Assembly (NCBI RefSeq): GCF_019744875.1
Contig: NZ_JAIETU010000019.1
Location: forward strand, 1-64,000
Direction of reading: 5' to 3'
From: Hyphomicrobium sp.
Lineage (GTDB): Bacteria > Pseudomonadota > Alphaproteobacteria > Rhizobiales > Hyphomicrobiaceae
DNA: 64,000 bases
Both the position numbers and the translations under genes were made by a program. Positions within the stretch are counted from its first letter, which is position 1. Each line of letters begins with the position of its first letter. The notes under the pieces were generated by a model that worked only from the letters and a program-made list of their open reading frames with translations, was not told where the DNA came from and did no database searches. Below are positions 36,089-39,332 of this stretch, one piece after another.

Positions 36089-37147
36089 ATGACTAGACAC
36101 GTAAAAGTAAAAACGACCAGCGGCGAAGCCAAAGAAATTCCTCTTGGGGTGATCCGCTACTTGAAGATCGTCGATGGCGAAAGCCGCGACGGTCCTCAGA
36201 AAGCGAAGATCGTAATGGCGGGGGACTCATCCCCTGTCATGACCGAGCAATCGGTCGCCGATCTTCGCAGCGGCGAGTTTCCCCTCGTATATGTTGGCGG
36301 GGGCGTCTACGTCCCGCGTGCACATATCCGGCAGGTTGAGCCGCTCAGCGAACGCGACCGCCAAGGACTGGCGGATGCCAGAAAGATCGATGCCTCTAAG
36401 TTCAAGACGCGCATCGTTCTCGCAGGCGATCTAACATCCGTCTGGGGGACAAAAAGCATCGAGCAGCTCAATGAGCGCAGAATGCGGTTCGTACCCGTCG
36501 GCAACGGGGCGCATGTCCACCGCGACAATATCCGCAAGATCGTGGAGCTGGATGATCGCGCCCGCGCGCGGATAGCGGAGAAGCTCCGCATCGATGCGTC
36601 TGCGTTCCGGGCGCAGGTCGCATTAGAGGGCGATGACAGGCCCAAGCTGAGCCGCCTCTCGATTATCGAGATGAAGGCCAAGGGCCTCGATCTCGTGCCG
36701 ATCCAGCCGGGCGAGTATGCCGTGCGCGGCAACGTCAAATATTTCCGCTCCTTCTTAGAGGAGGAGCAGGAAGATCTGGCGCGGAAGTATCCGGAAGCCG
36801 ATGCGGCGCGCTTCGCCACCAAAATCGTGATGGCGAGCGAGGATGCGATGCTCTCGACCACCAAGCCGGAAAGCTTGCAGGCAGCCTTCGCGGCGGTGAA
36901 TGTCGGCTATGACCGGTATGTGCCGGCGGCCAACATCGTGCCGGATCGCGTCACCGCGTTCTCGAAGGACGAAAAGAAGGGGCTGAAGGATGCTGGCTAT
37001 GCGATGGAACGCAACTGGCGTTCCAGCATCGGCCTCATCAACGGCCGCATCTTGAGCCCCGCCACGGCGGAGCAGATCAAGCAGAGGCGCGAGGCGGCGC
37101 TGGCGAAAGCCGAAGCCCCGAGCAGCCCGCAGATCGCGGCAGAGTAG
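36089..37147 (+). CDS. 68-residue-repeat protein, four-repeat paralogue
   Basis: 352 residues behind AAAGGAG. Four tandem units end in YVPRAHI (Ile80), HVHRDNI (Ile148), YAVRGNV (Val216) and YVPAANI (Ile283), with 67-68-residue spacing. Each unit has a charged helix (SERDRQGLADARKIDASKF, DDRARARIAEKLRIDASAF), then a beta segment such as TRIVLAGD and the ending LVPxGxxxYVP. The C-terminus matches the short paralogue at 9725. No signal peptide or known domain; the regular period suggests a solenoid or a multi-site binding scaffold. It lies inside the plasmid-type region with the mobilisation genes. Confidence 0.88.
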   Translation: MTRHVKVKTTSGEAKEIPLGVIRYLKIVDGESRDGPQKAKIVMAGDSSPVMTEQSVADLRSGEFPLVYVGGGVYVPRAHIRQVEPLSERDRQGLADARKIDASKFKTRIVLAGDLTSVWGTKSIEQLNERRMRFVPVGNGAHVHRDNIRKIVELDDRARARIAEKLRIDASAFRAQVALEGDDRPKLSRLSIIEMKAKGLDLVPIQPGEYAVRGNVKYFRSFLEEEQEDLARKYPEADAARFATKIVMASEDAMLSTTKPESLQAAFAAVNVGYDRYVPAANIVPDRVTAFSKDEKKGLKDAGYAMERNWRSSIGLINGRILSPATAEQIKQRREAALAKAEAPSSPQIAAE

Positions 37148-37156
37148 GGGCGGAAC

Positions 37157-37291
37157 ATGGCCCTCAACGATGCCTTCCGCGTGGCGCACGCGCCGGGCCG
37201 GAGGTTTGACAAGCAGTTCAAAAACTCCGGCCCGCAGCCGACCCTAAAAAGTCGCCGCCGCAAGCGACGTTTCCCGCGCCCGAAAATCTGA
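37157..37291 (+). CDS. Small basic protein of 44 residues
   Basis: ATG nine bases after the repeat-protein stop; the body is strongly basic (LKSRRRKRRFPRPKI). The frame ends inside the loop of the terminator, so the transcript covers it. It may be real or an accident of the terminator stem. Confidence 0.35.
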   Translation: MALNDAFRVAHAPGRRFDKQFKNSGPQPTLKSRRRKRRFPRPKI

Positions 37292-37309
37292 TCGGGCGCG
37301 GGATTTTTT
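37273..37309 (+). terminator. Strong rho-independent terminator
   Basis: CCCGCGCCCGA (37273-37283) with TCGGGCGCGGG (37292-37302), eight-base loop, T6 at 37304-37309. Ends the repeat-protein transcript and insulates the following RNA unit. Confidence 0.92.
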
Positions 37310-37360
37310 CATCCGGATTGATAATTGTTTCAATTATGACGAAAAAAATATAGAATAGAA

Positions 37361-37638
37361 GAAGTTGGAGTTTTCCAGCCGGGGTGTGAGAACCCTTTAT
37401 GTAATGCGGTTGGCATCAGCCGTTACTTGGTGCGTCTTCCTCACAAAATGGCGAAGCGCGCCATGGATGTCGCTTCTCGGGAATTGGACCGGGAGGCGGC
37501 AGTGCATGTTCAGGCTTGCCGCCTGCACGGTCTCGTACCGACAGGTGTGGCTAAAGACTGCCGCACCGTTGTCATTACATAGCGGTTCTCAACTCCCGGT
37601 CACCAGAAGGCAGCCCCTTCCGGTGGCCGTTTCGTTTT
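37361..37638 (+). ncRNA. Candidate structured RNA, about 278 nt
   Basis: Promoter-like TTGTTT (37325-37330), 18 bases, TATAGA (37349-37354). A closing stem pairs CCGGG (37379-37383), TGAGAACC (37387-37394) and TATGTAATG (37398-37406) with CATTACATA (37573-37581), GGTTCTCA (37584-37591) and CCCGG (37595-37599). Inside: GAAGCG/CGCTTC (37453-37458/37471-37476); GGCGGCA/TGCCGCC (37495-37501/37517-37523), whose loop GTGCA can pair with TGCAC (37524-37528) as a pseudoknot; and GACA-GGTGTGGC with GCCGCACC-gt-TGTC (37540-37573), which needs a G-U pair. A terminator-like hairpin CGGTCACC/GGTGGCCG with a broken T tract ends at 37638. No open frame of value. No known RNA class is recognised. Confidence 0.62.
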
Positions 37639-37663
37639 GAACAGACATTTCGAGGGGGAGTTT

Positions 37664-37939
37664 ATGCGTAGATTTATTGCATCCGTCGCCGCTCTGGCGG
37701 CCATCGTATTTCCAGCGTTCGCGCAAGAGGCCGCACAGCAGGAAGCCACGCGGCTCAAGATCGATCAAGAGGCTAAGGCCTTCATCTTCATCATCGACAA
37801 TGAGGCTGTGGCTCTCCTTGACAAGGCCGGTCTCCATGTCGTGAACGGCATAGAGTACGGCAGCACCCTGACCGATACCGGTCCCGACCACATCAAGATG
37901 CGGATCGCTGCCGCGCGAACGGAGGCCGAAGATGAATAG
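37664..37939 (+). CDS. Small exported protein, unknown
   Basis: 91 residues behind GAGGGGGAG. Signal peptide (FIASVAALAAIVFPAFA), then a short helical and beta domain (AKAFIFIIDNEAVALLDKAGLHV). It overlaps the tail-fibre-like gene by eight bases, so the two are coupled and both exported. Confidence 0.72.
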   Translation: MRRFIASVAALAAIVFPAFAQEAAQQEATRLKIDQEAKAFIFIIDNEAVALLDKAGLHVVNGIEYGSTLTDTGPDHIKMRIAAARTEAEDE

Positions 37940-39332
37940 GCTTCTCCTCGCGCTGTTCATTCTGATGACAACAGCCGCGCCAAGCTGGGCGCAGCTTGCG
38001 GGGACGGACACCAAGCCGGGTGATCCCTGCACCGCCGCCGAAGAAGGCTATGTGCGCCGGAACGCCAGCGTTGCCCGGGATTCGAGTGAGATCACCCTCA
38101 TGTGCGATGGCTCTGCATGGCAATCGGCGACGGGCTCGGGCACAAGCGGCATCACGGCGCTGACAGGCGATGTTACAGCCTCCGGGGCGGGATCGGTTGT
38201 TGCGACGATTGCCACGAACGCCATCGGCTCAGCCGAGATAACGGATGGCAGCGTAGCGAACGCCGACCTTGCAGGCTCCATCGCACTGTCCAAACTCTCG
38301 ATCACAGGCACGGCCAGCAGTTCTGTCTTCCTGCGCGGGGACGGCACCTGGGCCGCGCCTTCGCTCAGTGAAACCGATCCGCAGGTGGGGACGACCACCG
38401 CCAGCAATTTTTGTAAGGCAAATGTCGGCGGCACGGCGATTGACTGCGCAACCGCCGCGATTGCTTCGGCGGATATCAGTGATGGCACCGTGGCGCTGGC
38501 CGATCTAGCGGCGAACTCGGTCAACGCGTCAAAGATCGTTGATGCCACCATTGCCCTTGCCGACCTCTCCGCCACAGGCACGGCCTCAGCCACGACCTTT
38601 CTGCGCGGCGATAACACCTGGGCGGCGCCTGCGGGCGGCGGCGGAGCTGGGGATTATCAGATACTCACAGCGAGCGGTACGTGGACGAAGCCGGCTGGAG
38701 TCGATCCGAACCAGGCGATTGTTGTCGAGCTGTGGGGCGGTGGCGGTGGTGGACACAGTAATTCAAGTGCCGGCGGTGGCGGAGGCGGGGGCGCATACCG
38801 CAAGCTTGAGCTTCGCGCCGGCAATGTCCCCGCCAGCGTGGCGGTTACCGTGGGTGCAGGAGGTACGGGAGGCGCTATTCCGACCGTGGGTGGCACCAGT
38901 AGTTTTGGAAGCTTCCCCCCTGCATATGGAGGCGGTAAGGGACATTACAGTAGCATAGCCGGCGGTAGTGCAGGAGGAGGAGGCAACGGAGGGAGCATCG
39001 TCGGAGCCGGTACGACCGATCCCGATGCGGACGACGGCTCAAGCGCCGCAGTTTATGGCGGTGGTGCAGGTGGCGTAACCTCATCGATCTCGTCCGCGAC
39101 CCACGATTGCTCATCGTCTGTCTTTGGAGGCGGAGGCGGCGAACGCGGCAGCAAGAACGCATGTTCAAGCGAGTATGGCGGAGGCGGCGGCTCGAAAGCC
39201 GGTGCTGCAGGAACGTCGCAATACGGTGGCAACGGCGGCACCGCGAACGTGGCAGGCACTGCCCCCGGCGGAGGCGGCGGACACAATGCCGCCGGCGCCC
39301 GTGGCGAAGTGCGCGTGTGGGTTATTCCATAG
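37932..39332 (+). CDS. Exported Gly-rich protein with tail-fibre-like repeats
   Basis: 466 residues. A signal peptide (LLLALFILMTTAAPSWA) is followed by a two-copy motif GTASSSVFLRGDGTWAAPS and GTASATTFLRGDNTWAAPA, a pattern known in phage tail fibres. The C-terminal 220 residues are a glycine-rich domain starting ASGTWTKPAGVDPN, with many GGGGG runs and a final GEVRVWVIP, again like fibre tips. An exported fibre-like protein on a mobile element may serve as an adhesin or envelope decoration; this is inference. Confidence 0.78.
   Translation: MNRLLLALFILMTTAAPSWAQLAGTDTKPGDPCTAAEEGYVRRNASVARDSSEITLMCDGSAWQSATGSGTSGITALTGDVTASGAGSVVATIATNAIGSAEITDGSVANADLAGSIALSKLSITGTASSSVFLRGDGTWAAPSLSETDPQVGTTTASNFCKANVGGTAIDCATAAIASADISDGTVALADLAANSVNASKIVDATIALADLSATGTASATTFLRGDNTWAAPAGGGGAGDYQILTASGTWTKPAGVDPNQAIVVELWGGGGGGHSNSSAGGGGGGGAYRKLELRAGNVPASVAVTVGAGGTGGAIPTVGGTSSFGSFPPAYGGGKGHYSSIAGGSAGGGGNGGSIVGAGTTDPDADDGSSAAVYGGGAGGVTSSISSATHDCSSSVFGGGGGERGSKNACSSEYGGGGGSKAGAAGTSQYGGNGGTANVAGTAPGGGGGHNAAGARGEVRVWVIP

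Follow-up and report, generated by a model that had tools for sequence, protein, structure and literature searches.

The antisense RNA C4 of phage P1 is described as being cut by RNase P out of a longer transcript, and its loops a' and b' as pairing with the target mRNA (PMC5320573). The P1 GenBank record marks a1, b1, c4, a2, b2 and icd in this order; the names a' and b' used here were transferred to the sequences by matching. C4-like sRNAs of Acinetobacter baumannii, which we liken to the present RNA by their description, occur in many copies per genome, are apparently processed and carry a variable recognition loop, and their targets are given as proposals in the same source (PMC5320573). 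A second system, sRNA-Xcc1, is a confirmed 88-nt RNA (PMC2996969) found upstream of symE in Xanthomonas integron cassettes, where a divergent mechanism has been suggested (PMC12444791). C4 and sRNA-Xcc1 are given as separate families (PMC12189769), and the relevant portions of these sources treat sRNA-Xcc1 as a virulence-linked sRNA or a divergent symE regulator, leaving a link to C4 unstated there (PMC2996969, PMC12444791, PMC12189769). A further RNA, c4-2, whose name suggests a relative of C4, is listed in PMC11701678. We found no report of the alphaproteobacterial branch described below in the open-licence papers searched.

The stretch of DNA analysed here (the window) comprises 64,000 nt of Hyphomicrobium sp. 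(GCF_019744875.1, NZ_JAIETU010000019.1, positions 1-64,000, forward strand); the genome measures 4.5 Mb, and the window is part of its contig C9. Because Pfam identifies nearby genes for a VirD4/TraG-type coupling protein, a ParB-like protein and a resolvase, and a VirC1/ParA-like ATPase gene is also present, the neighbourhood looks, by its gene content, like a conjugative island. A Pfam scan of ten proteins of the window showed neither a reverse transcriptase nor an IscB/TnpB nuclease. An RNA unit occupies positions 37361-37638 of the plus strand, between two overlapping genes that start at 37664 and 37932 and the strong intrinsic terminator of the upstream transcript (37272-37303, from the terminator scan), which forms the left boundary of the unit and had been correctly placed upstream by the original prediction. 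Of the promoter-like boxes also announced there, a sigma70-like sequence is indeed present (TTTCAA-17-TAGAAT, 37328-37356), with TTTATT-17-TAGAAT boxes (8/12 matches) in three close relatives, but it is weak: a strict consensus scan found 0 promoters in 36900-38100, and across 66 loci the mean best promoter score of 8.36 compares with 7.62 for shuffled sequence, a weak signal family-wide. Similarly, a terminator-like hairpin does form at the 3' end (37597-37629, up to 37638 with its T tail, seen in the fold and the alignment), but the tail is interrupted (TTTCGTTTT) and the hairpin is absent from the list of the terminator scan.

The plus strand of the unit (37361-37640) folds at -137.1 kcal/mol, whereas dinucleotide shuffles average -100.1 (sd 4.9), which gives z -7.5; none of 200 shuffles folds as well, and the minus strand reaches z -5.7. 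The closing stem and inner stems foreseen for the unit are present in this fold. The transcript would open with a 5' hairpin (37364-37379), also recognizable by eye in divergent homologues, and contains two inner hairpins (37406-37423 and 37429-37462; fold and alignment), the second of which is absent in many divergent homologues. A 91-aa TTG open reading frame over the unit (37365-37640) was rejected as a chance frame, being closed in 10 of 11 relatives.

Judged from its sequence and modelled structure, the 3' half of the unit (37487-37605) has the layout of the P1 C4 and sRNA-Xcc1 antisense RNAs: an acceptor-like stem followed by ACCA, inner hairpins, a variable loop and a conserved recognition strand a'. 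The predicted processed 5' end is at 37487, where the 5' strand of the acceptor-like stem begins (X, 37487-37495), and X is followed by the 5' strand of the inner stem P4 (37496-37502), whose 3' strand is at 37558-37564. The variable loop (b' in C4 naming) spans 37569-37582 and the recognition strand a' (CGGTTCTCAACTCCC) 37583-37597, the latter overlapping the 3' strand of the acceptor-like stem (Y, 37593-37601), which itself overlaps the base of the terminator-like hairpin and precedes the ACCA at 37602-37605. The 5' half of the RNA is complementary to the recognition strands, as are the a1/b1 sites annotated in P1: an a1-like strand (37381-37394), which forms the 5' strand of the closing stem, is complementary to a', and a b1-like strand (37398-37409) to the variable loop together with the adjoining hairpin base. 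The statement that the element belongs to no recognised class is not supported at the level of architecture, though all scores lie below the Rfam cut-offs. The best Rfam resemblance of the window RNA is to sRNA-Xcc1 (RF02221), which aligns to 37487-37609 with 23.2 bits at a gathering score of 53 bits. RF02221 matches at the RNA in 13 of 20 divergent loci at E up to 2 (in 7 at E 0.05 or less), with a best match of 44.1 bits (E 1.6e-4), so that every copy tested stays under the gathering score; a scan of the window's own genome listed the second copy (37.6 bits) and missed the window copy. C4 (RF01695, gathering score 45 bits) gave no match at the window RNA and its best relative, L024, scored 26.0 bits (E 0.006). 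In 15 genomes, RF01695 returned five matches at E 1, the two best being copies of the window-type RNA and the other three lying away from known RNA copies, and one control genome also matched. None of 15 RNA-carrying genomes matched c4-2 (RF02944) at E 1, the control genomes being silent too. At curated cut-offs, Rfam gave no class in the window, nor did it at the RNA of ten other loci, and a known Rfam class was rejected on this ground.

The RNA family shares with C4, in the modelled structure, the closing stem, two inner hairpins and a single-stranded recognition strand, and more closely the succession of acceptor-like stem, inner hairpin, loop hairpin, recognition strand and 3' aCC; the order promoter, a1/b1, antisense RNA, a2 and gene is likewise that of the P1 record. 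It differs from C4 in its scores, in a long 5' part with an additional strand Z, and in a downstream leader matched by the a' arm only. The terminator follows the RNA in the alphaproteobacterial family, whereas in the C4 loci inspected a terminator-like hairpin lies, by eye, between a1/b1 and the RNA. The immunity context of C4 (icd, ant) is absent, the scanned downstream genes encoding exported, defence, other or unknown proteins. We therefore filed the RNA as C4-like in its working but not as a member of RF01695 or RF02221, since the curated scores were missed and, for C4, two-arm targeting and the phage setting are missing as well. The C4 loci used for comparison (L206-L220) include several in which, by eye, the terminator-like hairpin separates a1/b1 from the RNA, and as many as 20 C4 RNAs occur in a single genome (G777). 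The sRNA-Xcc1 loci (L176-L205) come mostly from other classes of Pseudomonadota, L192 being from the window's own order, and a genome may hold as many as 9 of them.

When 199 related genomes, the window's own among them, were searched at the DNA level, 17 had a match at E 0.01; besides the window, 11 long homologues were found at 74-82% identity, the remaining matches being short and weak, and the alignment of these twelve sequences supports 81 pairs, 18 of them changed on both sides. The covariance model R1 matched 14 of 103 family genomes and 25 of 385 class genomes at E 0.001, in both cases including the window's own, with up to four matches per genome. To these the window's own genome contributes a second copy, at G000:C7:132831, and the same-genus genome G005 two copies (98.8 and 97.8 bits); a contig of Hyphomicrobium sp. 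SJ665 likewise carries two copies with these same scores. A pattern scan of genome contigs yielded 64 named loci, 51 of them alphaproteobacterial judging from record titles, and 2 viral contigs, and R1 recovers the RNA in 49 of these 66. The compensatory changes that the original prediction proposed to look for were abundant, the stems being kept in this way across 43 homologues. It had proposed to look in related plasmids; no DNA match was obtained among the plasmids or phages searched, and a plasmid or phage origin by DNA similarity was rejected. The upstream 352-aa protein had no relatives in the viral contigs. By eye, many close relatives of the window RNA have other genes upstream, and a signal-bearing gene lies 3' of the RNA in all 11 close-relative loci shown (by eye, not by similarity count), an arrangement that, as a pattern of gene neighbourhoods, is as expected of a moving cassette.

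A Rhizobiales subgroup (L111, L122, L124, L126-L129, L139, L143, L151, L158, L166 and L171, with L122 and L171 assigned solely by model range) keeps the core and has another 3' end without a clear terminator, mostly Y followed by TTGGGGTC or CTCGGGGTC; L139, L143 and L166 differ. At L090:5538-15130, two RNA copies about 8 kb apart both precede exported-protein genes, and a short gene of the Phage_integrase family lies on the opposite strand after the second RNA/gene set.

The gene directly behind the window RNA (37664-37939, plus strand), the predicted target, encodes a 91-aa protein with an N-terminal hydrophobic, signal-like segment by score and no Pfam or PADLOC match, and the overlapping second gene (37932-39332, plus strand) a 466-aa Gly_rich_2 protein whose signal-like start was judged by eye, which agrees with the two exported-protein genes named in the original prediction. 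In 64 of the 67 loci listed family-wide (L113 was omitted), a lenient rule places the start of an open reading frame, 40 codons long or more, 5-46 nt behind the RNA. A hydrophobic N terminus was scored in 34 of 54 downstream frames after removal of near-duplicates and in 82 of 478 background frames, an enrichment that is only indicative because background frames were called greedily and downstream frames by the lenient rule; the threshold also missed at least one signal-like protein (L098). Scans of 20 downstream genes with Pfam and 10 proteins with PADLOC named ZorA of Zorya II (L170), PDC-S11 (L083), an HNH protein (L072), an outer-membrane barrel (L073), a GGDEF protein (L154) and a Peptidase_S74 spike-like protein (L174), with L102 below the cut-off. 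In L170 (1770-3232), the RNA copy ends 9 nt before the ZorA start, and the antisense RNA may control a defence operon there. On the viral contig IMGVR_UViG_3300048579_000441 (L174:8515-11030), the RNA precedes the spike-like protein, which is 759 aa long, and the second copy in the window's own genome (L070:9831-13106) stands before genes for two proteins, one signal-bearing and 106 aa long, the other of 912 aa and with a Peptidase_S74 chaperone domain.

We evaluated the pairing on an alignment (A5) of 44 sequences built from sequence only, comprising 41 of 56 model matches together with L074, L075 and L078; the near-duplicate L042 and 14 matches that were weaker or antisense were left out. 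In fold A, the putative precursor conformation, the closing stem and its extension are combined with a hairpin between X and strand Z (37469-37480), which pairs with both X and the 5' strand of P4 and so competes with the C4-like fold; 88.6% of its cells are paired, 23 of 36 pairs show two-sided changes, and of 500 shuffles none reached three of the measures used while 6 and 2 reached the other two. In fold B, the C4-like conformation, the X:Y stem is combined with P4 and a small loop hairpin; 92.7% of its cells are paired, 16 of 20 pairs show two-sided changes, no shuffle among 500 is as high on any of the five measures, and pairing falls to 29-52% when the partners are slid by 1-3 columns. 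Where the original prediction had a pseudoknot option, the analysis thus yielded a second fold that excludes the first, and conservation across the aligned sequences supports both. At three positions of helix Z, U-G occurs more often than any other pair, and because of such G-U pairs the RNA is placed on the plus strand; the anticipated selection for RNA pairing is thus borne out, the stems being maintained by compensatory change. When the stretch from X to ACCA is folded alone, X:Y and fold B form in 39 of 44 sequences, and RCCA directly follows the acceptor-like stem in 38 of 44. In the full transcript, fold A (-137.1 kcal/mol) is favoured over fold B (-111.4) by ~26 kcal/mol, and the best fold of 37487-37638, with the terminator attached, is not B. 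Activity would therefore need trimming at both ends or a kinetic route.

Two exclusive conserved folds, a Y strand that overlaps the terminator base and a reading frame so regularly close behind the RNA (the 64 of 67 loci above, lenient rule) could also describe a cis-acting leader, attenuator- or riboswitch-like, in which the choice between A and B sets termination at 37597-37629 or access to the Shine-Dalgarno sequence without any free RNA being made. We regard such a leader as unlikely, though it deserves consideration: the core has the layout of C4 and sRNA-Xcc1, which the sources consulted describe as free RNAs (PMC5320573, PMC2996969), the conserved RCCA after the stem fits RNase P processing, and the scanned downstream genes are too diverse for one metabolite.

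The pairing of the RNA strands with their own flanks was then compared with their pairing with the flanks of other loci (swapped). In 22 alphaproteobacterial clusters, a' pairs with its own leader at -12.38 kcal/mol versus -10.56 with swapped leaders (p 5e-5; p 2e-4 in a repeat analysis), the own leader ranking first in only 4 of the 22. A second set gave p 0.024 for 26 loci and p 0.041 for the 24 that remain without two close relatives; it comprised 26 of the 49 R1-matched loci (of 66), after 8 loci already used, 2 cut loci (L132 and L145) and the 13 of the Rhizobiales subgroup had been left out. With both sets combined (46 loci), 0 of 20000 permutations did as well. Family-wide, the complementarity of a' to the downstream ribosome-binding site is locus-specific. 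An ungapped score gave weaker support (p 0.016, and p 0.26 with the loop added), and the sense-strand control was null (p 0.66). For the variable loop b' against the downstream leader, the result in the 22 alphaproteobacterial clusters was null (p 0.53 and p 0.14), and the loop was rejected as a downstream recognition element in the alphaproteobacterial family. Of the C4 features at the next gene's ribosome-binding site, an a2-like match is thus significant family-wide and a b2-like one is not. The upstream a1/b1 complementarity of C4 is found for both arms, cognate pairing with the own 5' region exceeding swapped pairing at z -9.7 for a' and z -8.4 for b' (22 clusters).

As a positive control, 16 C4 loci including P1 gave p 0.004 for a' and 0 of 20000 for b' on the downstream side; a first crude segment had given p 0.11 downstream and the split into arms was chosen after seeing that result, the arms were delimited by counting from the 3' end, and neither the C4 nor the Xcc1 set was purged of relatives. 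According to our analysis of 30 loci, sRNA-Xcc1 likewise has a1/b1-like sites on the upstream side (0 of 20000 for each arm) and leaders that match on the downstream side, with the difference that its loop arm b' matches the downstream leader (0 of 20000) and its a' gives only p 0.064. Taken together, the C4, sRNA-Xcc1 and alphaproteobacterial results show that the test recovers known C4 targets and place sRNA-Xcc1 in the same scheme, and the arm-wise results indicate that in the alphaproteobacterial branch a' is the only arm used, with the Shine-Dalgarno region as its site.

In the window, AACTCCC of a' is complementary to GGGAGTT at 37656-37662, within the proposed target a2 (GGGGGAGTT, 37654-37662, plus strand, assigned by complementarity) in the Shine-Dalgarno region of the next gene. 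The unit is consequently probably not self-contained in function, contrary to what was first proposed, as a' matches the next gene's Shine-Dalgarno region family-wide, though in the window the own leader has no advantage over foreign leaders: its duplex of -10.9 equals the mean with foreign leaders (-10.9), at rank 10 of 22. Among close relatives of the window RNA, the own leader ranks 1-4 of 22 in 8 of 11 and 14-16 in the other three; like the window, L006, L010 and L012 rank low. This equivalence in the window, the several loci that have no convincing a' match (e.g., L112, L116 and L148) and the CUCC within a', by which any Shine-Dalgarno sequence partly pairs, would suit a stand-alone trans-acting sRNA with unlinked targets, for which the downstream match would be generic anti-Shine-Dalgarno complementarity. 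We consider such an sRNA a rather improbable explanation, as cognate pairs are stronger on average even though the swapped leaders are, by eye, mostly Shine-Dalgarno-like too, and as matches extend further in L024, L026, L027 and L051. That the element is a DNA structure or recombination site instead of an RNA is highly improbable: recombinase genes do lie near some copies, but the plus strand folds better than the minus strand, and the U-G pairs prevailing in helix Z would be mismatches on the other strand.

We consider it fairly likely, if slightly less so in view of the window's own target pair, that the unit is a C4-type processed antisense module repressing the gene at 37664, and the sequence evidence suggests that the RNA probably switches off its exported-protein neighbour. 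As a plausible mechanism, a single transcript would carry first a target copy (a1/b1), then an antisense RNA of ~80-120 nt and lastly the terminator, with the controlled gene behind it. As long as this transcript is uncut, its a1/b1 strands together with strand Z would keep the antisense part inactively folded. Cleavage at the base of the acceptor stem (37487), most likely by RNase P, would free the antisense RNA, which is predicted to fold with a tRNA-like acceptor stem ending in ACCA, and the freed a' would pair with the Shine-Dalgarno region at 37654-37662 and repress translation of the 37664 gene, the presumed target in the window. We infer this path from precursor to antisense RNA to repression by analogy with known C4 biology and from the conserved RCCA; its purpose would be the silent carriage of mobile cargo.

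By its sequence, the window RNA seems distantly related to a phage silencing RNA. What appears to be new is an uncatalogued alphaproteobacterial branch in which the terminator comes behind the RNA and a single arm is aimed at the Shine-Dalgarno region, placed before unrelated cargo that includes genes of antiviral defence. More tentatively, and with rather less confidence than we give the antisense module itself, C4, sRNA-Xcc1 and the alphaproteobacterial RNA might form one large family of portable antisense guards, each with its own decoy target and locus-specific codes, silencing the mobile cargo that has landed behind it (spike-like exported proteins, nucleases, a Zorya gene). A kind of regulatory RNA known for the most part from P1 immunity appears to have a broad branch in Alphaproteobacteria, directly before mobile cargo genes, and the C4-like scheme offers a mechanism for sRNA-Xcc1. 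This provides a testable route by which acquired genes, including a defence operon, could stay silent until needed. If such portable antisense guards do exist, they would amount to a lock on the expression of horizontally acquired genes in general, one that phage infection or transfer might release.
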